Assembly (NCBI GenBank): GCA_014871385.1
Contig: CM026428.1
Location: 10,372,583 to 10,436,582 of the forward strand
Direction of reading: 5' to 3'
DNA from: Ceratodon purpureus
Taxonomy: Eukaryota > Streptophyta > Bryopsida > Pseudoditrichales > Ditrichaceae
Length of the DNA stretch: 64,000 nucleotides
The notes below the pieces were generated by a model. That model searched no databases, was not told where the DNA came from, and worked only from the letters and a program-made list of their open reading frames with translations. A program made the position numbers and the translations under genes. Below are positions 6,589 to 63,049 of the stretch, one piece after another; position 1 is the stretch's first letter; each line of letters starts with the position of its first letter.

Positions 6589-6682
6589 CTCAGCTCTTTT
6601 AGCTAGGATCCTTATCCACCCTTCATTCTACTTTCTATTCTTTCTCTCTCCCCTCCTTATCATTCTATCCTATCTTGTCAGT

Positions 6683-19955: not shown

Positions 19956-21000
19956 GGGAAATGGGCAGACGCCCTAGGGGACGGCGGCGAGGAATACTGA
20001 CTGAACCTGAATCAAGCGATGGACGAAAAATTCCGAGAGGTTAGTTTTTTCGCAATACCACGGCTAAGGAGTTTTAGATCGGTCGGAGGGAAGGGATGCC
20101 AAGGTACACATACTTCAGAATTGAACAAGGGCTGAAACCTGGACTGCGGGGAGTCTAACTTTTGCGACGACACTCCCTAGAAGGAGACGGCTTCTGCTAC
20201 GACCCAGTCAAATGAATACTCAGAACACAAGACATTGCAATAAAACCTAGACCATTGCAATAAAAAAACTTACAGAACGTCGTGCGGAAGCACTTACCTC
20301 GTTTACAAGAATACTACACCCCGTAGCCAAGAGCATGCGTGAAGCGTGGAAGACAAGACGACCCACAATTTCATTCTCTACGGATTTGACGACAAGGGGA
20401 GATGGGGTTTTGGGAGGATGAGAGACTTACGGAGGGAGGGGCTAGGGCGGTTTAGACTATTCGTTCTCCAGTAGTGGGAACACCGAACAACTCTCTCATC
20501 GAATTCCAGCGCGGCCCGGAAGAAAGAACTGCAACGACTAATCTTAACGAATGCCGGGAGGGGTATATAGATGATCACACGACACAGGGATAAACATGCC
20601 TCTTTCGTTGGTGGGCTAAGTTAAGACTGTAATCAATGACCAACTTAGATACTACAAGGGGTTGCTTGAAATAAGCTCAAATCGTTTTCAATTTAATAGT
20701 TGAGACCGTAAAAACTACAGCTTACTTACGGCGCATAGATATAAGGAATACAGAAAGTTAAACCCTAAACAAGAGACTACAAGACGGCGATAGGAGTCTG
20801 TATCTGCGTGAGTGGAGGGTGACCTGTTACCATGGAATCTGAATTAGGACCGCCAGATCGACGTTGCCCATTACCGCGACTCCAGTCCCAATGGACTTAG
20901 GTACGTCACCGGCGGGGGACGTCACTAAAGTGCGAGCCTTGAGCGGTGAGCGGTAACTTTGCGGATATTTTGATGTATTTGGGAATTTAGAGCGATATGG
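15577..21000 (-). mobile_element. CACTA DNA transposon, ends not resolved
   Basis: Inferred from the intact TNP2-type gene. The 5' non-coding side extends at least to about 20,980, where a motif shared with the second CACTA-type locus at 45.26 kb occurs. CACTAACG on the minus strand near 21,150 is a possible terminus, but I found no matching end and target duplication on the other side, so the boundaries are approximate. Confidence 0.5.
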
Positions 21001-21803: not shown

Positions 21804-24800
21804 CTACTTCTCCAGGTGCTTCAAAAGGCCACTCTCTAGGACTCGCTTGACTTCGTTGAAGCTAAAACTAGCTGCATGAATGAATGTATCCGACTCCGAA
21901 TCAAGACCGCAAACTACACTGAGAAGGTAGTACAAATGCTTACAATTAGCCCATTGACCCCGCTTCCCAAGTGCCGTCATTGCCATCTCCTTGAAGTTTG
22001 GGCAAGTGCAGGCAGGGTGCTGCGAAATGGTCAGGTAGTATTGTTGTACCTTTGGAGGCTTCCCAGAATCCAATGTGACAATGCATCCCAGGGCTGGGGC
22101 AGGCAGCATGCAAAGCTTGCTGACCTTCGCGTTCAACGATAAGGCAGAGGCACAATTATTGCTATGCTTGGTCGACGGGGCCTTCTTGTTCCGTCGGATG
22201 AGCTTCCCTGATCGCCGGGTAGGGAACTCATCCGGGTATGCCGGCGTAGGGTAGGCGGAGAGGTCCACTGCCGCGGCCCGGTCTTGGAAGAGTCTTCTTG
22301 GTGACATCTCCTTCAGTTGAGGGAGTCTGAAGCCGGCATTCTCTAGAGAGAGGATCTCTTTCTTCGTCAACTTCGTCCCAATCTTCACAGGCCACACCTC
22401 AGGTACCTTTGGCACCGATAGTACCCACTTCCGCTTGCTACCCTTGACGCACCTGTCAATGTCGTCATTGCAGAAAAAGAACTGATGAGTCTCTATTCTG
22501 TCCTTCTGGTAGTTCTTCATGGGGCCTGTGTATGTCGGCGCAGCCGTGCTCTTCCCGTGCTGCACAATTCGTGCCACGCATTTCTTCTTAGTCACAGCGT
22601 GTTGGGCGAAGCAAGCCTTAGCGGACGTCTTAGGAAGTCGTGCAATGTGCCACTCGGAAGGGTTGCAGGCGGTCTCTTCAACTGAAGTGACGTGATGGTA
22701 CTCGACTGGAGGTGGACAGTGCTCAGGGTGGAGGTCGGCTTCGTCCGCTTCAGTGCTTGTAGGAGAGTCTGCTAATACCACCATCGGAGGGTAGTCGCTC
22801 TCCAGACGTGCAGCTCTAGTCTGGACACGAGGTCTTGACACGGTGATCTTGTCTGGCCTATGAGACTCTCGTTCATCTCCGAAGGCAACATCAGGTTTTC
22901 GTTTTAGTGAGACACAGACCTCCTCCCCTTCGAGATGCGGGTCCCTTGTGCACCACTCGCCCGCTCCTGGCATGTTCATAATCGCTTCATGTAGGACCTT
23001 CGGGTTCCCTGTCCTCGCTGCAGATCTCTGTGCACGTCGGAGGCTGAGCTCTTCTTTTGACGGACCTTTCCCGGGACGCTCCCCCTTCAAGAACTGGAAG
23101 TAGGCAACGCATTGCATGAACGCCCTTACAAAGTCGTCGACAGCTGCAACGTACAAGTCGCTGCCCCGATCTCCAGACTGCTGCTTCCACCTGTTGTGAA
23201 TTGATTCAGCAAGATTGCACGACGGCATTTCCGCCAGCTCTTCCTCAGTGTGATTCTGCGCACATTAGGGGTTAGGTTAGGGTTTAGGGTCCAATTACTG
23301 ACTGCGAAGCAAAAACAGTGCCACCAGCAAGAGTCCTCGTCACCGAGGCCAATTGCCAAGCGCTGCAAGGCTGCTGCATTGGGCGCTAACTCAAGGCATG
23401 GAGCAACATGAAAGACCAGACTGAGTACCCCCAGCAAGAGTCCTCGGCACCGAGGCAAATTGCCAAGGGCTGCAAGGCTGCTGCATTGGGCGCTTAGTCA
23501 AGGCATGGAGCATCATGAAAGACCAGACTCAGTACCCCCAGCAAGAGTCCTCGGCACCGAGGCAAATTGCCAAGGGCTGCAAGGCTGCTGCATTGGGCGC
23601 TTAGTCAAGGCATGGAGCATCATGAAAGACCAGACTCAGTACCCCCAGCAAGAGTCCTCGGCACCGAGGCCAATAGCCAAGGGCTGCAAGGCTGCTGGAT
23701 TCGGCGGTAGGTCATGCCTCGGAGGATCAGAAATGAGCAGATTCTGTACTCCCACCTAGAGTACTCGGCACCGAGGGCTGAAAGGGTGCTGCACTGGACG
23801 CTAGGGCATCGGAAGGAGCATCACGAGAGAGCAGATTCTTTACCTTCACCAAGTCACCTAAGATGCGATAGACACCTGAAAGGCCGAGAGATAGCTTACC
23901 AGTTCCATGAAGCCTCCCCACTGCCGATAGCGATGGTGCCAGAACGAGAGCCACGTCTCCATGTTGGAGAGCCCTTTTCTAGTTGCAGCGCCGGATGACA
24001 TCCACCATGCTCGGATTGCCAAGAATTTTGTTTCAGCTTCGGCCAGTGTCGTCGCATTCTTGTACTGTTGGCAGAGTTTGATATGTTGTGCTCGGAGGTC
24101 CTGTCGAATGTTTGCGTTTGTATGTTGCTCCAAAGACTGCCTCCAATGAAATAGGCATGTCCTCTCCCTGTCAACCATCCTCTCGGAGGCGTTACCGCTC
24201 CCATAGATAATTCGAACTGCGTTCCAATTCGCTTGGGCACCGTCTGCCATGAAGCCCTTAAAGTTAACTCTCGCGACCCCGTGAGTCTCCATGATGGCAT
24301 TCAAATTCTTCCACAGCACGGACTGGGCTGCCGTGTCCTCCGACTGCATGTCGCACGCAGCGATTGTCATTATCCGACAGTAAGTTGGGTCGTAGACGTG
24401 GCAGGCCATCGTTACCCAGTCCCTTACTCGCCTCACGTGGTCAAACATGATCCACGCATCCTCCAAGTCACCGCCTGTCTGCATACGCTTAACTAGATCG
24501 ACTCCAGAACCCGGCCCTACCTCAGACATCTTGAAGACATACACCTTTGCCGCATCATCGCCTTGCCCCGGGAACATGTTATTCTGGATAAACTTCCAGT
24601 TGCTGAACCCCCGCAGCATCCTGATGCCATCCATAGTCCCAAAGCGCCTAACATTCTTGAACGACGTAATGCAATTTCGGATGTTTGGAGAAGAGAGGTG
24701 CTTACAGCGGTCGAATATTGGTTCGAGCTCCTCCAATTCAAGAATCTTCTGCGGTTCACCTTCCTTGGCCAGAAGTAACGGGCCCAGCAGCTCCTTCGCA

Positions 24801-26014
24801 GTTTCGAGGACGATTGCGGAGGGTGTGGCGGAGGGAGTGCGCTCCACCTGCTCCCTGATCAAATTCTCCGTGTGTTCGACGAAGTCACGGTTCTCGCCAG
24901 ACTTCACTGGATGATTGTGAGTTCCGAAGTGAACGCACGCTCTCGTCATGTGAGGTCCTGCAGTGACATAGTAAATCTTGGCAGGACAAAGTGCAACGCA
25001 GGTAGGCGGCGTACTGCAAGATTTACAGACCACGGTGGAACTCTGCGGCGGCTTTGACCCAACTTCAAACAGTTTCTCAGATTTCCCATCCCATTCAGTC
25101 TCGTTCAGTACCGAAGTCCTATTATCACGTGTAAGATACTCACATTTGACATTGTCACAGCGCAGATGGCCAAGGCACGACGAAGAACGGAATGTCAGCT
25201 TGAGGTCGTTCTGAATATTCGAAGTCGCTGTTCGAGTCCAAGGGTGTCCGTCGTATTTCCTATCCATTCCCCGTAACTGCTTTGCGCCGGAGTGATGGCC
25301 GTCAGCACCTAGGGGTGGGAACTCAAAAATGACATCGCCATTGTACTGAGGAGGAAGGTACTCAACTTCCTGCATTCTAATTGCATCAAAATTGATGCGA
25401 GACAGAACACTCTTTGACCTTTTACGAGCGCTAAGCTTCATGAGGCACTGGACGACACTGTTTGAAGGGGAGACTGCCGGGATAGACGGAGGGGAGACTG
25501 CAGGGGTACATGGAACGGATGACTTCAGGGAGGTTACTACTATTGCAGGAATCTCATCTGCAGTTGGCAATGTCGTGTCCTTCACCTCAGGGAGTACTGT
25601 CGTCTCAAGTACGTTTTCACTATCAGAATCACTCAACTCAAAGATGGTTTGAAGTCCTGGCTCGGTCTTCACTTTCCTCAACGGCGGATCAGAATTGATG
25701 CAAACTGTTGTGGACGATCGGGGGGTAAGCAATTCAGTAGAAGCACCTAAGACAGACTCCGTAATTCCGTAGACTCTGTACTTCCCTGGTTTAAGCAACC
25801 AAAACGTCCCAAACTCCTTCTGGGTAGATAACTGACCCACTGCATGCGAAAGTTCGCCACTGATGTCGTCAAATATCTCCTCCTCTACATGAAGTGATTC
25901 CTCTCTGTACTGGAAGCGAAGACTCAGAGTGGTAGAACTGATCATAGCACACCCATCTACACCCAAAGGAAACGTAATCGGAACAGAATGCGAATCTGCA
26001 CGAAGGTAAGCCAT
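21804..26014 (-). CDS. Mutator-like (MULE) transposase, two exons
   Basis: Exon 1 runs 26014-23900 and exon 2 23255-21804, separated by a 644-bp phase-0 intron (GTAAGC...GCGCAG), giving about 1188 residues. The N-terminal half has a Cys/His cluster ending in GTHNHPV, in the style of WRKY/GCM1 zinc fingers found in many MULE transposases. The DDE core shows IMFDHVRRVRDW, then FMADGAQANWNAV and CLFHWRQSLEQH. The catalytic Glu is probably in CNLAESIHN, created just after the splice junction. A SWIM-type finger (HPACTCPNF...CKHLYYLL) is near the C-terminus. Order zinc finger - DDE - SWIM is typical of MULEs. The intron holds about five copies of the minisatellite found in the methyltransferase-like gene. 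No stop or frame break was seen. An upstream start is possible if the ORF at 26412-26867 is a 5' exon. Confidence 0.8.
23262..23292 (-). repeat. Interstitial telomere-like repeat at an intron 3' end
   Basis: Plus strand reads TTAGGGGTTAGG and then TTAGGGTTTAGGG, a short mix of TTTAGGG-type plant telomere units. On the coding (minus) strand it becomes CCCTAAACCCTAAC... directly ahead of the GCGCAG acceptor, supplying pyrimidines and CTAAC branch-point-like motifs. Confidence 0.7.
23300..23860 (-). repeat. Minisatellite array (~107-bp units) in the MULE intron
   Basis: About five tandem copies. On the minus (gene-sense) strand the core is GCAGCCCTTGGCAA...GCCTCGGTGCCGAGGACTC, the same core as the arrays at 28.6-39.0 kb and in the same orientation relative to transcription. 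Units nearest 23,700-23,860 are more diverged. Confidence 0.9.
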
Positions 26015-26411
26015 ACTGTGAACACGAAGAGCGAGATGTGAAAAAAGCAAACACGGCGGAGGAGATGATCACAGAATATTACGTACCCTTCTCGCTGCGA
26101 CATTCTTCTAAACTCACACAAGAGTACATGATTCAGGAGACGGTTAACATTAAGACGTATAGTTAGGATAATTTCTGGAGCGAATAACCTTATATGAACT
26201 AATTAATCATGGATTAGTACAGGTCCAGAGAACATGCCCGCCCTAATATTCATTGTCATATAGGCTGGGATATTACAGGCATGAGTGGAAGATGACGGCC
26301 ACTTTTAGTACTAATAGATTTTTTATTACAATGAAACGCTTTCATTACAGCAGAACCATTCCGATCACATTCAGGTACACGTACTCCAAGGTCTTTAATC
26401 CCACTACTCTG

Positions 26412-26867
26412 TTAAACTCGACGAATGTGTTTTCTGGACGGCTCCCTCGCATCGTAGTCTTTGATACTGTCTTCAAGAAGCCCATGAGTGCTAATTGCAG
26501 TCCAGCAGCCTCTACTTTGGAGCTTACGTCCTTTCGGACGAGGGGTGCTTCTTAAAAGACATCTGGAGTAGGTCCCCGGTTTGATGTTTCCAACTTTGGC
26601 GTACGCATGGGCTGCACTAATAACGTCGCACACAGCCCGTTCTCCTTCTACCGTGGTTGCTGTGGCCGATTGGACACAGCCCTCGGCGTCCACAATCATG
26701 ACATGAACGGAAGCAACTTGGGTGGGTGGCTCCTTGGAGTCTGGCAAGCTGCAATCTGGAACTGGATCAAAGGGACCCTGAAAATCGTCTAAGGACACCT
26801 CATACTCTCCCACTACCTGTGAATCTAGAAATATACGAGAAGGGGACATGAGCGGTTCTGCCTCCAT
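26412..26867 (-). CDS. Small unknown ORF between the MULE and the methyltransferase-like gene
   Basis: 151 codons from an ATG at 26867, with a TATA-type box 74 bp upstream. No domain recognised. The segment ending VGNIKPGTYSR loosely parallels the MULE N-terminus (FWLLKPGKYRV) and the stretches before them are similarly spaced, so it could be a 5' exon or a duplicated N-terminal module. I found no donor in phase with the acceptor just before 26014, so it is kept separate. Confidence 0.4.
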   Translation of the reverse strand: MEAEPLMSPSRIFLDSQVVGEYEVSLDDFQGPFDPVPDCSLPDSKEPPTQVASVHVMIVDAEGCVQSATATTVEGERAVCDVISAAHAYAKVGNIKPGTYSRCLLRSTPRPKGRKLQSRGCWTAISTHGLLEDSIKDYDAREPSRKHIRRV

Positions 26868-26940
26868 CTCCAGTGAAGCCTCTACTAAGATAATCTCAGT
26901 GTGGAAATGCGTCTGGAAATGGAGGAGCCAGTGACATTTC

Positions 26941-26947
26941 TTATATA
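26941..26947 (-). promoter_or_regulatory. TATA box, minus-strand direction
   Basis: TATATAA on the minus strand, 74 bp upstream of the ATG at 26867. Together with the plus-strand box at 27253 it suggests divergent promoters about 310 bp apart. Confidence 0.5.
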
Positions 26948-27252
26948 GGAGTACAATGAACGCAGCCTCGGCTCATGTTAAAACACGTGTCTAGGAGGGC
27001 TATATTAATGCAAAGAATGAATCAGGGACGGCGCAGTCTTCGCATGGTTGTTTACATGCAGTTAATACGTGACAGTATGAAAGGTGAACTAACTTGTGCT
27101 GCAGAACAAATGCTACGTCCTGGTGAGTAGATATTGGAATATTATCAGGTAACTAAATTCATGTATTCCACGTACAGCCAACGGCGGCTCATTCATTAAG
27201 ACAACTATTAGCGTCCAAATATCTTATGGAGGGCCCAAATGTCAGTGAGAAC

Positions 27253-27390: not shown

Positions 27391-30300
27391 ATGATCACAC
27401 GATCTGCTTCGAAGGCGCAGGCAGAGTTATCCAGGTCTGTACAGAAACGGAGGCGTCTTCGGAGGAAGAGGAGGTTAGCGGCTCCGGAGGTCACTGAATC
27501 CCCGTACAATTTGCGTTCAGCGATGGGGAAGAAGGGAGGGAATTCTAGTCAGGCCGTCGGAGGACAAACTAGACGGCCTGCCGCTTCGATTGGACGAGAC
27601 GATGTTTCACCGCGAACTCTGAACTATGTGGAAGAGGACGGAACGCCCATCCAGAATCCTCGCAGTAAGGTATGCTCCAATTCAATGGGAACCATGCATA
27701 CGCTTGTCAACTTCGTTCTCTGGTAGACAATAAAAATCACTGTCCTCATGAGTATGGGTTACTTCAGAGTTGTCAAGTACATAGTCATCGAGTAGGCTGT
27801 AGTTTAGGAATTGAGGGTTTAGTGCGGGACGTTTCCTGCGGACGAAAAGGCCTATTACTCATGTGATTAAAATGTTGACAGATTGAACGATGTTTGAGCC
27901 GTATGAATTCATTTTTTGCGTTCTAGCCATATTATTTACGTACTGAGAAATTGCAAAGAGCGAATCCTTAATAATAGTTCGTTGGCGGTAATATCGGGGT
28001 CGGTACCGACTGAGGCAAGTTCTCCTTGCAATAGCGTAGGGGGCCGATTCAGACCGCAGCATATACGACGGACGGGTCTAGGTTAAGAGAGAGGGGGCGC
28101 ATGCAGCCTCGCAACGACATCCTACGTAGTATTCTGCGTTCCTTGTGATTTTGGTGTCCCTTCTGTTCGTCTTCCATTCCCCTGCACTGCAGACCTCATT
28201 GAGCATTTAGTTATTACTACAGCTCCTGGAGCAGATCGAAGTCGAGGACGACATGGAGGAAGAATCAGTCGACCGGAGTATGCGAGCACCAGTAAAGCTG
28301 AAGCCCAGCAACCATATTCAGGTGACGACTTCATATGTTATTATGTTCTGCATTATATACGTCTTCCTTTAGCTTGTTGATGCCATCCATTTCGAGTAAT
28401 TGGAGCTTCTGGTTAGTACAGCATTAGGTCTCGCGAGGATACCTAATATCCAGGGTTTTCTGAGAGAATACAAATTTCGATGTCGCAGCCTCAAACCGGT
28501 GCGGGAAGCAGTACCAGCGACAGCGGTGGTCCTTTCATCGCGACCAGAGGAGGCAACGTCATGATCGCAACACCCTCAAACAATCAGGTATGAGCTGATG
28601 CTTGGGCTCCAACTCCGATCGGGTCATGTCGTAATATCACTCCATTTCAAGCAGCGTCGTAGCCCACGGCATAATGCCTCGGTTTAGGGTACACCCGCTG
28701 CGGCTCCCAGTCTGGTGGTTTTATGTTGATTTGTAAGTTGTATTGTGTGCCCTTCTCGCATCCCCGCAGCCCTCGGCATAATGCCTCGGCGCCCAGGACT
28801 TGTGCCGGAGGCGCCAAGTGTAGGCTTCTTCTGTTGATTTGTAAGTTGCATTGTGTGCCCCCCTAGCAGCCTCGCAGCCCTTGGCATGAAGCCTCGGTGC
28901 CGAGGACTTATGCTGGGGGCTCCAATTTTGGTCTTGTTATGTTGATTTGTAAGTTGCATTGTGTGCCCCTTCAGCAGCCTCGCGGCCCTTGGCATGAAGC
29001 CTCTGTGCCGAGGACTTATGCTGGGGGCTCCAACTCTGGTCTTGTTATGTTGATTTGTAAGTTGCGTTGTGTGCCCCCCTAGCAACCTCGCAGCCCTTGG
29101 CATGAAGCCTCGGTGCCGAGGACTTATGCTGGGGGCTCCAATTTTGGTCCTTCTTTGTACATTTTAAAGTTGCATTGTGTGCCCCCCTAGCAGCCTCGCA
29201 GCCCTTGGCTTCATGCCTCGGTGCCGAGGACTTATGCTGGGGGCTCCAATTTTGGTCTTGTTATGTTGATTTGTAAGTTGCATTGTGTGCCCCCCTAGCA
29301 GCCTCGCAGCCCTTGGCATGAAGCCTCGGTGCCGAGGACTTATGCTCGGGGCTCCTGCTCTGGTCTTGTTATGTTGATTTGTAAGTTGCATTGTGTGCCC
29401 CCCTAGCAGCCTCGCAGCCCTTGGCATGAAGCCTCGGTGCCGAGGACTTATGCTGGGGGCTCCAACTCTGGTCTTGTTATTTTGATTTGTAAGTTGCATT
29501 GTGTGCCCCCCTAGCAGCCTCGCAGCCCTTGGCATGAAGCCTCGGTGCCGAGGACTTATGCTGGGGGCTCCAATTTTGGTCTTGTTATGTTGATTTGTAA
29601 GTTGCATTGTGTGCCCCCCTAGCAGCCTCGCAGCCCTTGGCATGAAGCCTCGGTGCCGAGGACTTATGCTGGGGGCTCCAACTCTGGTCTTGTTATGTTG
29701 ATTTGTAGGTTGCGTTGTGTGCCCCCCTAGCAGCCTCGCAGCCCTTGGCATGAAGCCTCGGTGCCGAGGACTTATGCTCGGGGCTCCTGCTCTGGTCTTG
29801 TTATGTTGATTTGTAAGTTGCATTGTGTGCCCCCCTAGCAGCCTCGCAGCCCTTGGCATGAAGCCTCGGTGCCGAGGACTTATGCTGGGGGCTCCAATTT
29901 TGGTCTTTTTATGTTGATTTGTAAGTTGCATTGTGTGCCCCCCTAGCAGCCTCGCAGCCCTTGGCATGAAGCCTCGGTGCCGAGGACTTATGCTGGGGGC
30001 TCCAATTTTGGTCCTTCTTTGTACATTTGTAAGTTGCATTCTGTGCCCCTCTAGCAGCCTCGCAGCCCTTGGCTTCATGCCTCGGTGCCGAGGACTTATG
30101 CTGGGGGCTCCTGCTCTGGTCTTGTTATGTTGATTTGTAAGTTGCATTGTGTGCCCCTTCAGCAGCCTCGCAGCCCTTGGCATCAAGCCTCGGTGCCGAG
30201 GACTTATGCTGGGGGCTCCAACTCTGGTCTTGTTATGTTGATTTGTAAGTTGCGTTGTGTGCCCCCCTAGCAGCCTCCCAGCCCTTGGCATGAAGCCTCG

Positions 30301-33300
30301 GTGCCGAGGACTTATGCTGGGGGCTCCTGCTCTGGTCTTGTTATGTTGATTTGTAAGTTGCATTGTGTGTCCCCCTAGCAGCCTCGCAGCCCTTGGCATG
30401 AAGCCTCGGTGCCGAGGACTTATGCTGGGGGCTCCTGCTCTGGTCTTGTTATGTTGATTTGTAAGTTGCATTGTGTGTCCCCCTAGCAGCCTCGCAGCCC
30501 TTGGCATGAAGCCTCGGTGCCGAGGACTTATGCTGGGGGCTCCAATTTTGGTCTTGTTATGTTTATTTGTAAGTTGCATTGTGTGCCCCTTGAGCAGCCT
30601 CGCAGGCCTTGGCATGAAGCCTCGGTGCCGAGGACTTATGCTGGGGGCTCCAACTCTGGTCTTGTTATGTTGATTTGTAATTTGCGTTGTGTGCCCCTTG
30701 AGCAGCCTCGCAGCCCTTCGCATGAAGCCTCGGTGCCGAGGACTTACGCTGTGGGCTCCTCCTCTGGTCTTTTAGTGTTGATCAGTCCTCCTTAGGGAAC
30801 TAAGACTGACCAATATATGTTGTTTCTCATTTGGAACAGGTGCCACGAAAAGGTGGTCCAGTAACCATGAGCGGAGGAGAGGATGACGTCGACGCAACAC
30901 CAAGCAACAATCAGGTACGACCATCGTCTTGTTATGTTGATTTGTAAGTTGCATTGTAAGCCCCCCTAGCAGCCTCGCAGCCCTTGGCATGAAGCCTCGG
31001 TGCCGAGGACTTATGCTGGGGGCTCCAATTTTGGTCTTGTTATGTTGATTTGTAAGTTGCATTGTGTGCCCCCCTAGCAACCTCGCAGCCCTTGGCATGA
31101 AGCCTCGGTGCCGAGGACTTATGCTGGGGGCTCCAATTTTGGTCCTTCTTTGTACATTTTAAAGTTGCATTGTGTGCCCCCCTAGCAGCCTCGCAGCCCT
31201 TGGCTTCATGCCTCGGTGCCGAGGACTTATGCTGGGGGCTCCAATTTTGGTCTTGTTATGTTGATTTGTAAGTTGCATTGTGTGCCCCCCTAGCAGCCTC
31301 GCAGCCCTTGGCATGAAGCCTCGGTGCCGAGGACTTATGCTGGGGGCTCCAAATTTGGTTCTTCTTTGTACATTTTAAAGTTGCATTGTGTGCCCCCCTA
31401 GCAGCCTCGCAGCCCTTGGCATGAAGCCTCGGTGCCGAGGACTTATGCTGGGGGCTCCAATTTTGGTCTTGTTATGTTGATTTGTAAGTTGCATTGTGTG
31501 CCCCCCTAGCAGCCTCGCAGCCCTTGGCATGAAGCCTCGGTGCCGAGGACTTATGCTGGGGGCTCCAATTTTGGTCTTCTTATGTTGATTTATAAGTTGC
31601 ATTGTGTGCCCCTTCAGCAGCCTCGCAGCCCTTGGCTTCATGCCTCGGTGCCGAGGACTTATGCTGGGGGCTCCAACTCTGGTCTTGTTATTTTGATTTG
31701 TAAGTTGCATTGTGTGCCCCCCTAGCAGCCTCGCAGCCCTTGGCATGAAGCCTCGGTGCCGAGGACTTATGCTGGGGGCTCCAATTTCGGTCCTTCTTTG
31801 TACATTTTAAAGTTGCATTCTGTGCCCCTCTAGCAGCCTCGCAGCCCTTGGCTTCATGCCTCGGTGCCGAGGACTTATGCTGGGGGCTCCTGCTCTGGTC
31901 TTGTTATGTTGATTTGTAAGTTGCATTGTGTGCCCCCCTAGCAGCCTCGCAGCCCTTGGCATGAAGCCTCGGTGCCGAGGACTTATGCTGGGGGCTCCAA
32001 CTCTGGTCTTGTTATTTTGATTTGTAAGTTGCATTGTGTGCCCCCCTAGCAGCCTCGCAGGCCTTGGCATGAAGCCTCGGTGCCGAGGACTTATGCTGGG
32101 GGCTCCAACTCTGGTCCTGTTATTTTGATTTGTAAGTTGCATTGTGTGCCCCCCTAGCAGCCTCGCAGCCCTTGGCATGAAGCCTCGGTGCCGAGGACTT
32201 ATGCTGGGGGCTCCAATTTTGGTCCTTCTTTGTACATTTTAAAGTTGCATTCTGTGCCCCTCTAGCAGCCTCGCAGCCCTTGGCTTCATGCCTCGGTGCC
32301 GAGGACTTATGCTGGGGGCTCCTGCTCTGGTCTTGTTATGTTGATTTGTAAGTTGCATTGTGTGCCCCTTGAGCAGCCTCGCAGCCCTTGGCATGAAGCC
32401 TCGGTGCCGAGGACTTATGCTGGGGGCTCCAATTTTGGTCTTGTTATGTTGATTTGTAAGTTGCATTGTGTGCCCCCCTAGCAGCCTCGCAGCTCTTGGC
32501 TTCATGCCTCGGTGCCGAGGACTTATGCTGGGGGCTCCTGCTCTGGTCTTGTTATGTTGATTTGTAAGTTGCATTGTATGCTTCTTGAGCAGCCTCGCAG
32601 CCCTTGGCGTAATGCCTCGGTGCCGAGGACTCCCGCTGGGGCCTCCAGTTTTGGTCCTCTTATGTTCGTTTTAAAGGTGCATTGTGTCTGTGGTCTCCAT
32701 CGTTTTAAAGTTTTATTGTGTACATGGTCTCCATTTTCCAGGCTGATGGCGGGATGGATGCTCCCCAGTTTGAAGAGGACACGCCAGGAAACACCGAAAA
32801 GGACGAGGACTCGGTTGATGATGACGACGCTTTCACTGGAGATCTAGACGAGATTCGATCTCGCCAGAAGCTTAACTCTGTCACTACTATTTCGAGTCTG
32901 AGAGTGAAGCCTTTTGCTTATTCACGTATAGACATTCCTCTCTGCAGAATGCAGCCAATGCCTATTGTGCGCCCGATGATGCAGTGCGACCTGTCGAAAC
33001 TGGAAGAGGAGTTCTCGCACGGGTACCGGGAGGGGGCATCTGTGTTTTACGTGTCAATTACAGATGAAGGAGGTAGGACTAGGGAAGTTTCGGCTGCTGA
33101 TAAGGCCAGATGGGGCCCTATCTGGAACAAGAAGAACGATCAGTTTAATGATTTCTTGCTATCGATCCCGGAGCTTGCAGGATATGCAGATCTAATGTTC
33201 TTTGTTTGTGACGGTAATCATCGTTGTCAAGCATGGTTAAACCATATTGAGCGCCTACACAAGGCCGATGAATCGTGGCATTACCTTGTGGACTCTATCC

Positions 33301-36300
33301 TTCTGGACACAAAGGGTAGAATCGGGTTAGTCATGCAGGTCATGCACAACATCAGCAAGTAAGTTTCCTAAAGTCTTAATCGTGGTTATCTTTCCATTAT
33401 TACGATTCCTTCTGTATTTCATGTTAGTACATTAAATCTGGTTCTGTTGTACCTGTACCAGGCATACCGAGGACAGTCATGTGAAGACGAACGATGTTCA
33501 CACCCTTTTCAGAGTTCAAAAGTACGGCCTCATGCCCTTCGAGCAATTTAAGGAGCTGTTGTCCCCCTCGGATGTAAAGAGATGCAGGAAAACAAAGCAC
33601 GGAACGTGGTACACATTACCTGTGAATGTATTCACTAGTTTCATTTACCAGGTACACCATGAGATTCAACATCTCTAATTGTTTTATAAATTTCCCTCCG
33701 TATGTGCCGACGAGCAATGCTGGGGGCTCCAACTGTGGTCACAGCATGTCGTTTTTACTCTCAGTGTTAGAGCCCTGTGAAGCAGCCTCGCAGCCCTTGG
33801 CTTAACGCCTCGGTGCCGACGAGCAATGCTGGGGGCTCCAACTGTGGTCACAGCATGTCGTTTTTACTCTCAGTGTTAGAGCCCTGTGAAGCAGCCTCGC
33901 AGCCCTTGGCTTATTGCCTCGGTGCCGTCGAGCAATGCTGGGGGCACCAACTGTGGTCACAGCATATCGTGTTTACTCTCTGTGTTAGAGCCCTGTGAAG
34001 CAGCCTCGCATCCCATGGCCTATTGCCTCGGTGCGGAGGACTTATGCTGGGGGCACCAACTCTGCTCAGTGCATGTCTTCTGTCTTCTCAGTACTCGAGC
34101 CCTTTGAAGCAACCTCGCAGCCCTTGGCTTAATGCCTCGGTGCCGAGGTCAAATGCTCGGGGCTCCAATGCTGGTCACTGCATGTATGTCGTTTCCTCAG
34201 TTCTAGAGCCCTTGGCTTCATGCTTGGCAGCCCTTGCCATAATGCGTTGTTGCCGAGGACTAATGCTTGGGGCACTACCTCTGATTACTGCATTCCGTTT
34301 TTTTGGTGAGTATTGCCAAATCCCCACTTCTCGCTATGATTCGTTCTATCATAATTTGACATGTTTCTCGCTTGGTGCAGCATGAGATCAGCAGAGCAGC
34401 AGACGAGGGGCTACGTGCTTACCTCGAGAATGCTGAGGGTGACGTCGCCGAGAAAGATAAAGCAGCTGCAATGAAGTTGGCGGCTGCAAAGAAGACCGAG
34501 AACTTGATAAAGAAAATGAACAAGTTAACAGCGGTCGCTAACCCGGACCTAACACCAGGTTTCTTGAAAGAGGTATTGTTTCCATTTCTCCGGACTACCA
34601 TACATCATGCTCCACCGATCTATCGAATAAGAACACCACTGATTATGCCATACTGATCTTGGTTCGGGGTCTGCCAATTCAGATTGAGCGGCACTACTCG
34701 TTGAACGGCTCCACGGGCGCCGAGTTGAATCTTGAAAAGCTGCAACTGATAGCAACGGTGAAGGCTTCTTCAACCGCCAAGATCAGATGGCTCGAGTTAT
34801 TCAACTCCTCTATAGCCACAAGAGAGGCCCGGTGCCTACCACCTAAACCATGCAACGAGCAGAGGCTCACCCATTGGCTGGGAAGGGCATGCTTCTGGGC
34901 AGCAGTGAGTCATATCTCTCCACTACACTGTAATGCTATGCTGTATTTCTGTTTCGATCCTATTGTTAACTTCTGCTTACTTAATTAAATTACGTATGCC
35001 TGGTCGATCTTTCAGTTGAGTGAGGAAGCATCCACTTCTCTGGACGACATTCTCCGCTCGGACCGACCTCCAATCAACATGAACGTCTCAACAGAGCCCA
35101 TGGGTTTGGAGACCTACGTAGAGGATTGCAGAATGAAGCTATTTGACCATGCCTTCTTGTCGTACTTCAAAGGTACTGACGCCTTCACCAAGTCAACCGA
35201 CTTCAAGGATTTCAAGGGGTCCGACTTAGTGGTTCGAAGAGTCCTTTACAGGTAATTCTCTTATCTTCACTTAGTTTACTATGAGCATCCTCTTGAAGCA
35301 ACCTCGCAGCCCTTGGCATAATGCCTCGGTGCCGAGGACAGTTGCTGAGGGCTCCAGCTCTGGTCAGTGCATGTAGTTCTTCATGTTTATTCTAGAGCCC
35401 TGTGAAGCAACCTCGCAGCCCCTGGCATAATGCCTCGGTGCCGAGGGCTCCTGCTGAGGGCTCCAACTGTGATGAGTGCATCATGTTCTTCTTGCTGCTC
35501 TGGGGCCCACTGAAGCAACCTCGCAGCCCTTGGCATAATGCCTCGGTGCCGAGGACAGTTGCTGAGGGCTCCAGCTCTGGTCAGTGCATGTAGTTCTTCA
35601 TGTTTATTCTAGAGCCCTGTGAAGCAACCTCGCAGCCCCTGGCAAAATGCCTCGGTGCCGAGGGCTCCTGCTGAGGGCTCCAACTGTGATGAGTGCATCA
35701 TGTTCTTCTTGCTGCTCTGGGGCCCACTGAAGCAACCTCGCAGCCCTTGGCATAATGCCTCGGTGCCGAGGACAGTTGCTGAGGGCTCCAGCTCTGGTCA
35801 GTGCATGTAGTTCTTCATGTTTATTCTAGAGCCCTGTGAAGCAACCTCGCAGCCCCTGGCAAAATGCCTCGGTGCCGAGGGCTCCTGCTGAGGGCTCCAA
35901 CTGTGATGAGTGCATCATGTTCTTCTTGCTGCTCTGGGGCCCACTGAAGCAACCTCGCAGCCCTTGGCATAATGCCTCGGTGCCGAGGACAGTTGCTGAG
36001 GGCTCCAGCTCTGGTCAGTGCATGTAGTTCTTCATGTTTATCCTAGAGCCCTGTGAAGCAACCTCGCAGCCCCTGGCATAATGCCTCGGTGCCGAGGGCT
36101 CCTGCTGAGGGCTCCAACTGTGATGAGTGCATCATGTTCTTCTTGCTGCTCTGGGGCCCACTGAAGCAACCTCGCAGCCCCTGGCATAATGCCTCGGTGC
36201 CGAGGGCTCCTGCTGAGGGCTCCAACTGTGATGAGTGCATCATGTTCTTCTTGCTGCTCTGGGGCCCATTGAAGCAACCTCGCAGCCCTTGGCATAATGC

Positions 36301-39300
36301 CTCGGTGCCGAGGACCCATGCTCAGGGCACCAGCTCAGTGCATGTAGTTCTTCTTGTTTGTTCTAGAGCGCTTTCTAGCTACCTCGCTGCCCTAGGTACA
36401 ATGCCTCGGTGCCAATGACTACTGCTGGTTCAGGCTGTAACTTACATGTTGGTCGTACGTAATGCAGGTACTTCAAGTACGAGCTACTGGCGAAAGGGGC
36501 AATCTTAAAGGATGATCTTCCGATATTTCTTCAGGCTTGGGTTGATCGCTCCAGTCCCAGTTGCATGTTTTCTGCTGCTCAGCAACGAACCTGGACCACA
36601 TCGCATCTTAGCGCCGGTGCGTGGTACCTAGATTGCCTATCCAGCTTCACCCCATCGTTTGAAGTTGAGCTCAGGAAGTCGAGAGACTCCGTAGGTGAAT
36701 CTGGGGCTGAGATGCAAGATCTTCTCGGGATCGAAGACGAGGCAGAGAGAGCAAAGGCCTTGAAGCGCCGCGTTGAGGAGGATCGCAGGAAGGCACAGAA
36801 GATCAAGGAGGCCGAGGAGAAGGCGCTTCAGAGGGAGGAGGAGAAGCAGCAGAAGGCCGCGGAGAAGAGTTCGAAGAAAGGCAAGAGGAAAGTGAAGTCT
36901 CCCGGCGGGGATGTTGTAAAAAGTCCTATAAGCAATTCGGGATCACAGGCACCTCCGAACTCAAGGGGCACAAAGCGCAATGTGGACTCTACGTACGAAG
37001 AAGCTCTCACTCAGGTCCCTAACATTAATGTAGGTGAGGAGGAGGGGAGCAACAACCGCGAGCTCATCATCAATTCCTCACTGAAGGATGTCCTGGCGGG
37101 GTCCTCTAATAACTTCACCCAAGCCTACCTCGACATCAAGAGCTTCCTGCTGAAGGTACTTTCCAACGTGCAATTGATTTCATCCAGGATACTGTAACCG
37201 TGCGCATGAAAATGTGGCCACGGGGTGCTATTTCGTTGTAGTCGTAAGTTAGAGTGATTTCGGCTTTGACTCCTTATTGAGGAGTACTTTGCTTGATATT
37301 GTGCAGCAGTCGGAAGGGAGATCCCTGCGCTTCAGGGGCGAGCCGAGGGTGCATCCGTTTGTTGACCTCATCATTGCGGACATTCCTGAGGGTCTGCCGG
37401 TCCCTGGAGTTTCCGATCCTCCCACATCCATCCCCTCATGGAATATTGACACCGATAACTGCTTGCAGCCCATTTTCGATTTCGCCGACAACCATTTACA
37501 TGATGATGGGGCCGTCATATTATTCCACCCCTTTCGTGCCTCAACAAAGGGTGAGATCTTCGGGTACTGCGACGCCTTTGAGTTTGAAGTTCGGGAAGAG
37601 TGGTGGGGGACGAATAAGCTTCACCTCACATCTCCCATCAATCCTACACTGACGGTAAGCTCACTTCTGGGTCACCCCTAGTACAGTTTGTCATTGGTAT
37701 ATCTTCAGCCCATTGAAGCAACCTCGCAGCCCCTGGCATAATGCCTCGGTGCCGAGGGCTCCTGCTGAGGGCTCCAACTGTGATGAGTGCATCATGTTCT
37801 TCTTGCGGCTCTGGGGCCCATTGAAGCAACCTCGCAGCCCTTGGCATTATGCCTCGGTGCCGAGGACAGTTGCTGAGGGCTCCAGCTCTGGTCAGTGCAT
37901 GTAGTTCTTCATGTTTATTCTAGAGCCCTGTGAAGCAACCTCGCAGCCCCTGGCAAAACGCCTCGGTGCCGAGGGCTCCTGCTGAGGGCTCCAACTGTGA
38001 TGAGTGCATCATGTTCTTCTTGCTGCTCTGGGGCCCACTGAAGCAACCTCGCAGCCCTTGGCATAATGCCTCGGTGCCGAGGACAGTTGCTGAGGGCTCC
38101 AGCTCTGGTCAGTGCATGTAGTTCTTCATGTTTATTCTAGAGCCCTGTGAAGCAACCTCGCAGCCCCTGGCAAAATGCCTCGGTGCCGAGGGCTCCTGCT
38201 GAGGGCTCCAACTGTGATGAGTGCATCATGTTCTTCTTGCTGCTCTGGGGCCCACTGAAGCAACCTCGCAGCCCTTGGCATAATGCCTCGGTGCCGAGGA
38301 CAGTTGCTGAGGGCTCCAGCTCTGGTCAGTGCATGTAGTTCTTCATGTTTATTCTAGAGCCCTGTGAAGCAACCTCGCAGCCCCTGGCATTATGCCTCGG
38401 TGCCGAGGGCTCCTGCTGAGGGCTCCAACTGTGATGAGTGCATCATGGTCTTCTTGGTGCTCTGGGGCCCATTGAAGCAACCTCGCAGCCCCTGGCAAAA
38501 TGCCTCGGTGCCGAGGACAGTTGCTGAGGGCTCCAGCTCTGGTCAGTGCATGTAGTTCTTCATGTTTGTTCTAGAGCCCTGTGAAGCAACCTCGCAGCCC
38601 CTGGCATAATGCCTCGGTGCCGAGGGCTCCTGCTGAGGGCTCCAACTGTGATGAGTGCATCATGTTCTTCTTGCTGCTCTGGGGCCCATTGAAGCAACCT
38701 CGCAGCCCTTGGCATTATGCCTCGGTGCCGAGGACAGTTGCTGAGGGCTCCAGCTCTGGTCAGTGCATGTAGTTCTTCATGTTTATCCTAGAGCCCTGTG
38801 AAGCAACCTCGCAGCCCCTGGCATAATGCCTCGGTGCCGAGGGCTCCTGCTGAGGGCTCCAACTGTGATGAGTGCATCATGTTCTTCTTGCTGCTCTGGA
38901 GCCCATTGAAGCAACCTCGCAGCCCTTGGCATAATGCCTCGGTGCCGAGGACCGTTGCTGAGGGCTCCAGCTCTGGTCAGTGCATGTAGTTCTTCATGTT
39001 TGTTCTAGAGCCCTGTGAAGCAACCATTGTTCTTCCTTGTTTTACAGACAATGAAGTTCGGGATTCTACTGGCTGTGAGGAGCTTCAAGTCCGGCGGCCG
39101 CAAATCCCGGTTCTCATTTCGCGAGGTGCCTGCACTGGAGCGCCTTGGATACGATGTTGGTCGGGATGATGTCCTGCAAAACCACGTTTCCCGTGGCACC
39201 CAGCTCATGAATGCCTCAAGGCCCTGGCGCGGCCCTCGCGAGAAGTCCGTTCCTCTTCTGCAGATGCTCATCGAGGCCACGACCGACCCTGGAAGTGTGG

Positions 39301-40040
39301 TTCTTGACTGCACGACCTCGACTGGTAAGCTACAGTCCTCTACGTTATAGTTCTCAGTTTCCATTTTCCAGGTATCCTCAGTAACGACCTTGCTCTCCCT
39401 CTCAGGTTCCTCAATTCATGCATGCCGACATGCTGATCGGCATATTGTTGGATTGGAGGCCGACCAGGAGATCTTCGCAGCTGTATTGAAACCTCTCATT
39501 CGAACTACTGCTGCCCCGAACGTTACTACCGCAAGACTGGTCACTAGTGAGGATCCCGATGGAGAAGTCAATGTGACAAAGGTTGCAAAGAGGTCCCGGT
39601 TCACTACGTGAGTTTAGAAACTTGTTTTCTAATGTTACGTACTCTTTATAATATGATTTGCTCTGGACTGGATTTATGAACATTGTGCCATTTATATTTG
39701 CAGATGCGGCATTCTGAGCACTTCAATGAATCTTCCTTTTTTTTGTCATCCACATTTTTTCCCAAGCCCCCCAAAGTCATGGCATCTTCCCAGTTACGCG
39801 AACGATGCAGCTATTCAACTAGCTCGTGGCAACCACCGTACCTTTCAGTCCAGAAACCCCCCTAGTAGGACTCTGGAATTCATCGATAGCGAAGCCCTTG
39901 AGTCGGATGGTGAGGCTGTTTCTGATGGTGGAGCTTCCTTCAGTAGTTCCTCGAGTATCACCTCCTCCTCATCCGAGCATACAGACTCGAGCGTCACTTT
40001 GTTCAGTACAGATCCTAGCGACTCCAATCATCTGATGTAG
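27391..40040 (+). CDS. 14-exon gene: nuclear coiled-coil protein with N4/N6 DNA methyltransferase-like C-terminus
   Basis: Exons 27391-27669, 28223-28321, 28489-28587, 30840-30914, 32742-33358, 33462-33651, 34381-34572, 34683-34904, 35016-35251, 36468-37155, 37307-37654, 39048-39324, 39406-39607 and 39704-40040. All introns are GT-AG, phases match and the total is 1287 codons. The N-terminus is very basic (RRRLRRKRR), a likely nuclear signal. A Glu/Lys coiled coil (AERAKALKRRVEEDRRKAQK) is near residues 750-815. Exons 11-13 look like a permuted beta-class DNA amino-methyltransferase: motif IV-like VDLIIADIPEG (usual DPPY) near 918-930, then PLLQMLIEATTDPGSVVLD-CTTSTG (usual DPFxGSGTT) and HIVGLEADQEIF near 1090-1132. 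The altered catalytic motifs suggest a DNA- or SAM-binding pseudo-enzyme or a very divergent enzyme. The tail is Ser-rich. Five introns hold minisatellite arrays. It lies head to head with the MULE transposase. Confidence 0.65.
28655..30775 (+). repeat. Minisatellite array, intron 3 (~20 units of 108 bp)
   Basis: The unit has the core GCAGCCCTTGGCATGAAG, then CCTCGGTGCCGAGG, then ATGCTGGGGGCTCC, then TTGTTATGTTGATTTGTAAG and a C-rich stretch ending CTAG. The period is 108 bp, a multiple of three, so antisense frames stay open. Inner units are nearly identical and the first two (28.66-28.80 kb) are diverged, as expected for a homogenised array. Confidence 0.95.
30945..32700 (+). repeat. Minisatellite array, intron 4 (~16 units of 108 bp)
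   Basis: Same unit and orientation as intron 3, with several alternating subtypes (…CTTCTTTGTACATTTTAAAG variant versus TTGTTATGTTGATTTGTAAG variant; ATGAAGCC versus TTCATGCC). The last unit near 32,600 is diverged. Confidence 0.95.
33705..34300 (+). repeat. Minisatellite array, intron 6 (~5 diverged units)
   Basis: Units of about 109 bp with the same core, GCAGCCCTTGGCTTA then GCCTCGGTGCCG, but a different linker (CAGCATGTCGTTTTTACTCT, AGAGCCCTGTGAAGC). Divergence increases toward the 3' end. Confidence 0.9.
35290..36430 (+). repeat. Minisatellite array, intron 9 (dimeric 217-bp higher-order repeat)
   Basis: About ten monomers arranged as alternating types A (CCCCTGGCA...GAGGGCTCCTGCTGAGGGCTCC) and B (CCCTTGGCA...GAGGACAGTTGCTGAGGGC) repeating every 217 bp. 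The dimers are nearly identical to those in intron 11. Confidence 0.95.
37710..39025 (+). repeat. Minisatellite array, intron 11 (dimeric 217-bp higher-order repeat)
   Basis: About twelve monomers, six A-B dimers of 217 bp, nearly identical to the intron 9 dimers and in the same orientation. The array ends just before the exon 12 acceptor (TTGTTTTACAG). Confidence 0.95.
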
Positions 40041-44678: not shown

Positions 44679-45706
44679 GAACCTGCAACATTATAATTTC
44701 GTCACTTGGGCAGTGGCTTCGGTGTGTTATACTTCCCGAGAGAAAACAATGGACGTCGTACCTCGCAAAGGGTAATCGCCGGGGCCATTCCCAAACTGAC
44801 ATAAACAAATTCAAATCGGATAAAACAAAAAATCTGAAAAAAGAAAATCTGCAGTTGCTGAGCAGTCTTTTTATCTCTCTTTCTACCTAGACCTTATAAT
44901 TATAATAGACTCAACGACTAAATTGAAATCCATTCTATTAATGGAGACAATTCCAAGTAGTCTAATAGTGGTCAAGAATTTATCCTTTGTCTCTCTTACA
45001 TGGCTATACTTTATATTGATATTAGACTTACTTTATATTGATAATAGACTTAGATACTAAGCAAAGGATAAGACTGTATTCATAAAAAATTCCTGAATAA
45101 TCTGATAGTCTTCATTACCTAAATCTGTATCCATGCATGCACGGGAATAGGCACGCACGGTGATAGGTGTTTTTAAGGTCATGCTTTTTGAAAATAAAAA
45201 TAAAAATAAAACCAACATGCTGCAGTTATAGAGTGTGAGAAACTTCACCAAAAACATCAAAATATCCGCAAACTTACCGCTCACCGCTCTCCGCTCACCG
45301 CTCAAGGCTCGCAGAATAGCATTTCCCCACCGGCGGGGACGGACGTAGTGAGGCCATGCAAGAGAACAATCTGATAGGAGAGCTGACCTCCTCACCATAT
45401 CCCCATTCACGCTAGAGCCGTCTCATGTACTTACCTTAGAGTCTGGATCGACTGTGACTGCGCACGTCTTGTTCAACATCGTTGAGGTACGTCTGGGACG
45501 GACTGAAGAGTAGGCCCACTGCGGGTCTCTTAGAACCGCATGGGCCTTGGTCGCTCCTGGTTCAGTTCAGAAGCCAAGAGAGTCGAAACGAAGATTGTAC
45601 ATGCGCCTTGTCATGTTTGAGTCAGTGTAGTAAGAAATCGCCTTGATGATCATACTAACCCCTTCCCATGTAGACATATTGCAGGACTGTTAACGTTACG
45701 GTGATC
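44679..45706. other. Non-coding; 5' region of the second CACTA-type gene
   Basis: Includes another partial copy of the TGCAGTTGCT...CAGTCTTTTTATCTCTC block near 44,850. At 45,258-45,315 it has CATCAAAATATCCGCAAA, CTTACCGCTCACCGCTC and CGCTCAAGGCTCGCA, the same block as the 5' side of the TNP2-type transposon. An intron-like TTGCAG precedes the ATG at 45707. Confidence 0.45.
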
Positions 45707-47312: not shown

Positions 47313-47396
47313 CAGGGTTGTCACGGTCGTCCGGGACGCTCGGGACGTGGGGACGTCCGCGGACGTCCGCCAGCGCCAGGGGACGTCCTGTGACTT
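47313..47396 (+). repeat. Left hAT-type terminus with GACGTCC subterminal motifs
   Basis: CAGGGTTGT followed by GGGACGTGGGGACGTCC, GCGGACGTCC and GGGGACGTCC. CAGGG-type ends and clustered short subterminal repeats, where the transposase binds, are usual for hAT elements. Confidence 0.65.
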
Positions 47397-47419
47397 AGAA
47401 AAAAAAAATCACCCGCATA

Positions 47420-47441
47420 GGTTTCACCCCGGGGTGAAACC
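47420..47441. repeat. 22-bp perfect palindrome
   Basis: Arms GGTTTCACCCC and GGGGTGAAACC meet with no spacer, 107 bp inside the left terminus. A related ACCCC-TCC-GGGGT repeat lies at about the same depth inside the right terminus (63,835-63,850). Confidence 0.9.
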
Positions 47442-47477
47442 ACATCTTCTACGCGGCGGAGGGGTTGCGGGGGAGGG

Positions 47478-47795
47478 TGCGGCCGTCGCCGCGGTGGGGG
47501 GGGCCGTCCCCGGCGACGGCCCCTTGCCGTCGCCGCGGTGGGGGGGGCCGTCCCCGGCGACGGCCCCTTGCCGTCGCCGCGGTGGGGGGGGCCGTCCCCG
47601 GCGACGGCCCCTTGCCGTCGCCGCGGTGGGGGGGGGCCGTCCCCGGCGACGGCCCCTTGCCGTCGCCGCGGTGGGGGGGCCGTCCCCGGCGACGGCCCCT
47701 TGCCGTCGCCGCGGTGGGGGGGGGGGCCGTCCCCGGCGACGGCCCCTTGCCGTCGCCGCGGTGGGGGGGGCCGTCCCCGGCGACGGCCCCTTCGA
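47478..47795 (+). repeat. GC minisatellite, seven ~44-bp units with variable G runs
   Basis: The unit is CCGTCGCCGCGGTG(n)CCGTCCCCGGCGACGGCCCCTTG, seven times, and differs almost only in the length of the G run (7 to 11). It is part of the GC island upstream of the hAT transposase gene. Confidence 0.95.
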
Positions 47796-47881
47796 CGGCC
47801 GTGACAGTCCATGATCGGACGGCCCCTCGTTGACTTACGGCCTCGACGGCCGTCCTCCGTTGATTTTTAGGGCTTACCCCT

Positions 47882-47928
47882 TGGCATTTCAGGGAATGAG
47901 TATAAAAGACCCCTCCTGAAAGTTGCCA
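47882..47928 (+). promoter_or_regulatory. TATA box inside an inverted repeat (hAT gene promoter)
   Basis: TATAAAAG at 47901-47908 lies between the arms TGGCATTTCAGG (47882-47893) and CCTGAAAGTTGCCA (47915-47928), which pair with a 2-base bulge. It is about 210 bp upstream of the ATG at 48113 and just downstream of the GC minisatellite. Confidence 0.6.
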
Positions 47929-48112
47929 TTACACTTCTGAATTGTACTCCATGTGCTACTAGTTCCACTAATATACGTGTGTATCTGTTGCATGGTGAAC
48001 GGCGGCGTTCAGAAGTGTGTTGAATTGGAGCTTCTTCGGAGGCTCTAGTTCTCTTGAGGACGTGGTACCCCGATTTTTTGAAGTTTTTCCGGGCGATCTA
48101 TCAAGTGCACCA

Positions 48113-57710: not shown

Positions 57711-57714
57711 CCCC

Positions 57715-58430: not shown

Positions 58431-58453
58431 CCTAACTGGCTGCCTAGGGGTTC

Positions 58454-63048: not shown

Positions 63049-63049
63049 A

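Follow-up and report, generated by a model that had tools for sequence, protein, structure and literature searches.

The stretch of Ceratodon purpureus DNA analysed here (64,000 nucleotides, contig CM026428.1; hereafter the window) contains a 14-exon gene ending in an amino-methyltransferase-like domain, and this gene is the accessory gene of a DNA transposon, not a host gene. It lies inside an element of 24,411 bp (window 20917-45327) whose ends are shared with other copies: in DNA searches of the same genome that included flanking sequence, 17 other copies stopped at position 45327 or at most 10 bases away and 14 other copies started at 20917 or at most 9 bases away, all at 99-100% identity, these being lower bounds obtained by scoring 18 of 780 right-end and 15 of 2645 left-end candidates. 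The window insertion is flanked by its own perfect 10-bp target-site duplication, CACCGGCGGG. For 10 of the 13 further copies with both ends listed, the ends were inspected as well, and each of the ten has a perfect 10-bp duplication of its own around the same ends (11 of 11 insertions with the window copy). Element length over these 13 copies ranges from 22.5 to 30.5 kb. The sharp shared ends, the target-site duplications and the near-identical copies together place the gene in a DNA transposon that has moved recently. It is not a rare single gene of a eukaryote; its place as the accessory of a many-copy element escaped the initial annotation, as did the exon 5 module and the palindrome arrays of the long introns (see below). 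The terminal inverted repeats are imperfect, and the ends of the element carry a repeat, GAGCGGTGAGCGG, unlike the core found in the introns (see below).

The element also carries a spliced, presumed transposase gene on the opposite strand (Table 1), with a MFDH...FMADGAQ...CLFH stretch and a CxC...CxH pattern, which we take to be transposase features, the CxC...CxH pattern and the CLFH motif being presumably MULE-like. The two genes form a regular pair. This was examined with 147 of the 150 listed exon-5 matches (three clade B rows were dropped) and all 149 listed transposase rows: the accessory gene was divergent to a transposase relative within 15 kb in 85 of 147 listed copies and within 50 kb in 108 of 147, whereas 200 random placements averaged 1.4 at 15 kb, with 4 as the highest count. 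Among the 112 closest listed transposase rows, 101 had a divergent accessory gene within 50 kb, and of the lower 37 rows only 5 showed a link with a listed clade A gene. Transposase relatives of a second group (66-68% identity, many with 700-730-amino-acid frames, on many contigs) mostly do not lie near any listed clade A accessory gene. The transposase open reading frames (ORFs) had no match in Pfam even at E 10, a typed piece giving only Smr (E 0.2), and a PDB profile search with the transposase returned one chance-level match only. The element resembles MULEs in its short terminal inverted repeats and in its 10-bp duplications, found in 11 of 11 insertions and of a length inside the 8-11 bp described for these elements (PMC6446971), but a MULE transposase identity was rejected: a genome search with PF10551 found at least 150 places, none of those reported lying in the element, and hhalign against local MULEs gave a probability of 0.1%.

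Relatives of the accessory gene are numerous. Exon 5 of the window has at least 151 genome matches at E <=0.001, the methyltransferase exons have 205 (one copy being counted up to twice), and searches with clade B queries gave 160 and 158. These relatives form three deep clades. Clade A, the window type, contains groups near 99, 88, 77 and 69% identity; clade B is about 45% identical in exon 5; and clade C, whose frames of up to about 590 amino acids cover the middle region together with most of the methyltransferase region, is 30-38% identical to clade B in the methyltransferase domain. Of 25 listed exon-5 matches with internal stops, 19 lie on contig C6, presumably a sex chromosome, which makes up 110.5 Mb of the 362.5 Mb assembly. 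For this species a genome of 360 Mb with U and V chromosomes of more than 100 Mb each has been described (PMC8000587).

The gene model, rebuilt from the window sequence, has GT-AG borders at 13 of 13 introns and keeps its frame throughout, with a total of 3861 nt, that is 1286 codons and a stop, and the strings IIADIPEG, GSVVLDCTTSTG and HIVGLEADQE quoted initially are all present in its translation. The earlier judgement that such a model is unlikely to be chance holds for exons 5-14. In L091, a clade A locus with a protein identity of 55-70%, these exons were found as ten tblastn pieces, most of them with borders that coincide or nearly coincide with those of the predicted exons (the piece for exon 10 overruns), and this supports the splice model independently; exons 10-12 are furthermore under strong purifying selection. 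Exons 1-4 (amino acids 1-184) are without such support and were not recovered in L091, where the stretch examined begins only some 1.6 kb before exon 5.

A beta-class N4/N6 methyltransferase-like domain had been proposed for the end of the protein, and Pfam, PDB profile and hhalign comparisons all agree with it. The window protein matched PF01555 (N6_N4_Mtase) over residues 1078-1133 with 29.6 bits (curated cut-off 26.7; E 8e-7), a clade B relative matched it over residues 7-226 of 252 and profile positions 2-219 of 221 (E 1.3e-9), and 9 of 9 members of alignment A2 did so at E <=1. A nine-sequence, three-clade alignment used in a PDB profile search retrieved DpnA (E 1.8e-9) and CcrM (E 1.5e-7 over positions 5-222 of 233), and hhalign of the domain against a phage methyltransferase gave E 1.5e-9 over 193 columns. 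The permuted order of the beta class, with motif IV followed by X and then I, was confirmed as well. Beyond this profile homology, the moss protein shares with the PF01555 enzymes DpnA (5hek, 5hfj) and CcrM (6pbd) the position of motif IV before motif I, the DDG strand and the D and late G of motif I, and its RGP[HR]EKS stretch is similar to their motif X, HP.QKP. It differs from them in that the window has DIPE in place of the catalytic motif ([DNS]PP[YFW], typically DPPY) and DCTTSTG in place of the S-adenosylmethionine-binding motif DPFxGSGTT, in a conserved stretch, V.G....[IV]P.WN, that follows motif IV (reading PVPG in clades A and C), and in belonging to a eukaryotic, spliced, transposon-borne gene.

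These alterations are real and conserved among relatives, as all 30 exon-11 loci retrieved from close clade A copies read DIPE and the D....TG of motif I is invariant in the nine aligned sequences. Motif IV reads DIPE (window) or DLPE (L091) in clade A, DVPE at four loci of clade C, and DQPF, DQPY or DTPF in clade B, so that the position of the catalytic aromatic residue is occupied by E in members of clades A and C. Motif I takes the form D-x-[STNA]-[AT]-[SA]-T-G in the loci matched by the search pattern. Across the nine sequences and three clades, down to 31% identity, the D-x-P of motif IV, DDG and RG..EK are also invariant. The ratio of non-synonymous to synonymous substitution rates (dN/dS) between the window and L067, of the 88% group, was 0.068 in exon 10, 0.059 in exon 11 and 0.069 in exon 12, at a dS of 0.36-0.52; closer copies have few changes and ratios from 0 to 0.90, and in a further comparison the other pairs were mostly saturated at synonymous sites, an out-of-frame comparison of exon 13 being excluded. 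The altered domain is thus kept by purifying selection at the protein level. In amino-methyltransferases the aromatic residue of motif IV stacks on the flipped base, and since this residue is lost in clades A and C, ordinary amino-methylation by their proteins is unlikely. Clade B keeps it and could be an active enzyme.

The long introns of the accessory gene carry repeat arrays. Introns 3, 4, 6, 9 and 11 are largely filled by 108-109 bp repeats with a common core of about 60 bp centred on CCTCGGTGCCGAGG. With up to 2 mismatches on the forward strand, 67 core palindromes were counted in the element, 62 of them in these five introns and none in the exons of the gene; one was found in the remaining 39.6 kb of the window, and ten permuted cores gave no match in the element and two single matches outside it. 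Arrays of different introns, and those of the 88% group, agree at 22-23 of the 25 positions of the centre as against 20-24 of the 48 spacer positions, in units aligned with the palindrome in register, which favours the centre. The palindrome TCGGNNCCGA has 64 sites in the element, where 0.34 were expected, and 0 in the 14 exons, and it is the sole one of the 256 palindromes of its form to occur at least twice in every one of five subfamily representatives; the next best does so in two of five.

The A88, A77 and clade C representatives also carry TCGGNNCCGA, in differing contexts. In relatives without the window core it takes the form of TCGGCTCCGA and three other variants in L091, of TCGGATCCGA in the introns and flanks of clade C, and of TTCGGTRCCGAA or something close to it in clade B. 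In L092 (745-1030), next to a gene of clade C, TCGGATCCGA lies within a longer palindrome, AAACGGCTCTCGGATCCGAGAGCCGTTT. Nine clade B loci together contain 6 TCGGNNCCGA sites in 39.4 kb (about 3 kb of which is double-counted, L006 lying nearly all inside L089), where 0.18 would be expected and the highest count in 200 simulations was 2; L001, which overlaps L090 and has no TCGGNNCCGA site, was left out. The six sites are distributed over five of the nine loci, and those of L004 and L005 are homologous, hence five independent sites. Expected counts come from mononucleotide shuffles for the comparison of 256 palindromes and from a first-order Markov model for the clade B and background counts.

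Exon 5 encodes a second conserved module, at the N-terminal side of the protein. Its 20 aligned members share an IPLCRM....VRP...F..GYR.G...Y stretch, a [DE]GNHR..AW motif and an MH.IN stretch, and the G, N, H and R of DGNHR are invariant in 20 of 20. We take this GxxR-type motif to resemble the signature of the ParB/DndB group. Weak Pfam matches of the members were to DndB (6 of 20, best E 0.008) and DUF1015 (3 of 20, best E 0.047), and the unrelated family E2F_TDP scored similarly (5 of 20, best E 0.039). Because unrelated families score nearly as high, the putative ParB/DndB kinship is treated as a lead. DndB itself has been placed in the ParB superfamily (PMC10853773). ParB was not detected when the module was compared with phage N15 ParB by hhalign (probability 0.4%), phmmer and profile searches of the PDB gave no meaningful match, PHROGs gave none and NCBIfam only weak unrelated ones, and a search of phages returned 8 records at E <=10, all of them unrelated genes. 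A single-sequence AlphaFold model of exon 5 had a confidence (pLDDT) of 35.5 and was useless for fold comparison. In its layout, a DGNHR module followed by a middle part with a basic coiled-coil-like linker and by the methyltransferase fold, the moss protein may recall the ParB-methylase fusions of bacteria, for example Bce_0392 of Bacillus cereus (PMC5512222), which combine a ParB-type module with an amino-methyltransferase in one protein. This likeness depends on a ParB-like nature of the DGNHR module, which the comparisons do not detect as ParB, and about 570 residues separate DGNHR from DIPE.

A selected, transposon-encoded protein together with short intronic palindromes that have multiplied with clade-specific variants gives a pattern like that of VANC proteins and VANDAL elements. 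In Arabidopsis, VANC21 binds a 9-bp motif that is arrayed through tandem repeat formation in the non-coding DNA of VANDAL21, introns included, and induces local loss of DNA methylation (PMC5735166). In both systems a plant DNA transposon carries an accessory gene, and a short motif is repeated in tandem within introns and further non-coding DNA, the arrays varying from one family to another (PMC5735166). The presence of such arrays in the moss element is an analogy, not homology, and the element differs from VANDAL in its 24-kb length, in the palindromic nature of its motif and in its methyltransferase-like accessory protein. By this analogy, the function that we tentatively favour, at somewhat below even chances, is that of a transposon accessory protein which reuses the methyltransferase fold to bind TCGGNNCCGA arrays sequence-specifically and so keeps the element expressible against silencing. 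The fold would have turned from an enzyme into a mainly sequence-specific DNA-binding part recognising TCGGNNCCGA palindromes, and the element would have multiplied these as tandem arrays in the introns of the accessory gene and, seemingly, of the transposase gene. The arrays would concentrate the accessory protein on element DNA, where the DGNHR module and the basic coiled coil could act on chromatin or DNA around TCGGNNCCGA, with the outcome that the element stays expressible, as VANC achieves for VANDAL elements. A fuller evolutionary scenario, possible but doubtful in our view, is that a plant DNA transposon captured a methyltransferase of bacterial type, which in clades A and C lost its catalytic aromatic residue and became a sequence-specific reader; TCGGNNCCGA would have been amplified in the transposon's own introns as a private code of each clade (TG, CT or AT centres) for self-recognition, serving to evade host silencing.

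As for a source of the gene, a close viral or prokaryotic one was rejected on the basis of searches in viral contigs, genome contigs and phages. Viral contigs gave zero pattern matches with one clade B protein as query, and 140 and 11 with the A1 and A2 queries, zero of which were confirmed as relatives by tblastn; genome contigs searched with A1 gave 46 pattern matches and zero confirmed. Phage tblastn with the clade B domain returned 257 records at E <=1, all below 60% identity, and the annotated records among the 15 listed were mostly called methyltransferases.

Several points weigh against the function proposed above. The palindromes may have the transposase or a host factor as their binding protein, or no binding protein at all, and the suggested ParB/DndB link consists of a motif and sub-threshold matches. 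The aromatic residue of clade B (DQPF, DQPY or DTPF) means that some members may methylate. In L064 the dN/dS of exon 11 is 0.90, a value derived from 1 synonymous and 3 non-synonymous changes. With regard to the palindrome, the site counts in arrays are not independent, being tandem copies, and neither the rest of the window (39.6 kb) nor the MULE loci (13 kb) contain any TCGGNNCCGA site, but both are weak controls because only 0.6 and 0.01 sites were expected in them. Furthermore, clade B loci have at most 2 sites each, no arrays, and in four of nine cases no site; the clade C locus L095 has no TCGGNNCCGA; and L091, in place of 108-bp arrays, shows scattered sites and one repeat in two copies.

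Four other explanations were considered. It is possible, if unlikely, that the protein is a working methyltransferase of unusual type, which methylates adenine or cytosine amino groups, or some other substrate, at TCGGNNCCGA or elsewhere and so marks element DNA, the E of clades A and C then reflecting changed chemistry. The retention of D-x-P-F/Y in clade B, the invariant D....TG and motif X-like stretch, a palindrome shaped like a methyltransferase target, and the fact that, to our knowledge, the second position of motif IV varies in some related amino-methyltransferases (NLPY, NIPY) are consistent with such an enzyme; DIPE, DLPE and DVPE, however, are without the residue that stacks on the flipped base, little of DPFxGSGTT is left in motif I, and the clades differ at catalytic positions while the remainder is constrained. 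A bacterial-type amino-methyl mark also occurs in a eukaryote in the N4-methylcytosine (4mC) system of bdelloid rotifers, reportedly linked to transposon control, but the moss gene belongs to the transposon and has an altered catalytic motif. In these rotifers 4mC has been reported as an epigenetic mark (PMC8885841).

Rather unlikely, too, is a role in transposition itself, in which the accessory protein would help the transposase to find or synapse element DNA, or would control copy number, the palindromes serving as internal binding sites of the complex. The divergent pairing with the presumed transposase gene and the palindromes between the transposase ORFs would fit this role, but the sites cluster in the accessory-gene introns and not by the terminal repeats, and the ends carry a different repeat, GAGCGGTGAGCGG. 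That the arrays are passive minisatellites expanding in the long introns of a minisatellite-rich genome, with an unrelated role for the accessory protein, we regard as improbable: other GC-rich repeats apparently occur in the same window, judging from their ORF pattern, and the 22.5 to 30.5 kb span of the 13 full copies is that expected from varying array length, but it is the core rather than the spacer that is conserved between arrays and subfamilies, and the same 10-bp palindrome recurs in differing contexts in three clades. Finally, one single host gene, domesticated in the moss to bind chromatin or DNA, which is not far from what the initial annotation suggested, would accord with strong purifying selection and an intron-rich structure, yet this deserves hardly any credence and is refuted for the window copy by the movement of about 24 kb as a unit, the target-site duplications at 11 of 11 tested insertions and the at least 151 exon-5 matches in the genome.

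The features of the element are collected in Table 1. A Pfam search with the possible third gene of the element found no match. Outside the element, the window contains, by eye, a copia-type gag-pol polyprotein in a 1533-amino-acid open frame (6509-11110, + strand); a region with Transposase_21 (E 2.5e-60) and DUF4218 (E 1.6e-30) matches that adjoins the 24-kb element (16752-19593, - strand) and presumably belongs to a CACTA-like element; a hAT-type transposase frame of 1032 amino acids with DUF659 and Dimer_Tnp_hAT (47999-51097, + strand); and a 1060-amino-acid open frame with a RING finger (zf-RING_2, E 1.9e-7; 51560-54742, - strand), which could be the accessory gene of another transposon. 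GC-rich stretches that have several frames without stops on each strand, and translations rich in R, G and P, lie at 47300-47930, 54870-55590, 57480-58490 and 62840-63930 and are apparently repeats of another kind than the 108-bp arrays.

Table 1. Features of the 24-kb element and its insertion site, in window coordinates.
Feature	Position	Strand	Remarks
Left target-site duplication	20907..20916	.	CACCGGCGGG
Left terminal inverted repeat	20917..20982	+	About 66 bp; poor match over outermost 15 bp
Presumed transposase gene, spliced	21804..26972	-	ORFs 26972-26412, 26068-23858, 23264-21804
Palindrome repeats	23335..23776	.	Repeat length about 107 bp; in the presumed intron that separates transposase ORFs 2 and 3
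Accessory gene, 14 exons, 1286 amino acids	27391..40040	+	Exons 1-7: 27391-27669, 28223-28321, 28489-28587, 30840-30914, 32742-33358, 33462-33651, 34381-34572; exons 8-14: 34683-34904, 35016-35251, 36468-37155, 37307-37654, 39048-39324, 39406-39607, 39704-40040
Lone TCGGTACCGA site	28000..28009	.	Intron 1, away from arrays
Intron 3	28588..30839	+	108-bp array, 19 core palindromes
Intron 4	30915..32741	+	108-bp array, 16 core palindromes
Exon 5	32742..33358	+	Conserved module containing CDGNHR; likeness to ParB/DndB/DUF1015 is by motif only
Intron 6	33652..34380	+	109-bp array, 4 core palindromes
Intron 9	35252..36467	+	108/217-bp array, 11 core palindromes
Exon 10	36468..37155	+	Basic, coiled-coil-like linker (judged by eye); dN/dS 0.068 against L067
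Exon 11	37307..37654	+	Motif IV region, IIADIPEG
Intron 11	37655..39047	+	108/217-bp array, 12 core palindromes
Exon 12	39048..39324	+	RGPREKS, similar to motif X; motif I, first half (LDCTTST)
Exon 13	39406..39607	+	Remainder of motif I and next strand (HIVGLEADQE)
Possible third element gene, ORF of 226 amino acids	40751..41431	-	Region conserved in copies
Right terminal inverted repeat	45248..45327	-	About 80 bp; internal duplication of 14 bp
Right target-site duplication	45328..45337	.	CACCGGCGGG

Transposons with accessory genes and anti-silencing proteins are already known from VANDAL elements, and no paper on a 24-kb plant transposon with a conserved, altered methyltransferase accessory protein and a palindrome common to three clades was among the results listed by searches of open-licence papers. 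The N6_N4_Mtase matches examined in this genome are a transposon gene family and not evidence of a host machinery for N6-methyladenine (6mA) or 4mC, which is a warning for annotation. In this family, with its near-identical copies and open frames, a methyltransferase-fold protein is the regular partner of the presumed transposase, and the candidate DNA site found in three deep clades makes the proposed function directly testable by binding. If the protein does read this site, a eukaryotic transposon would have made a self-recognition factor out of a modification enzyme.

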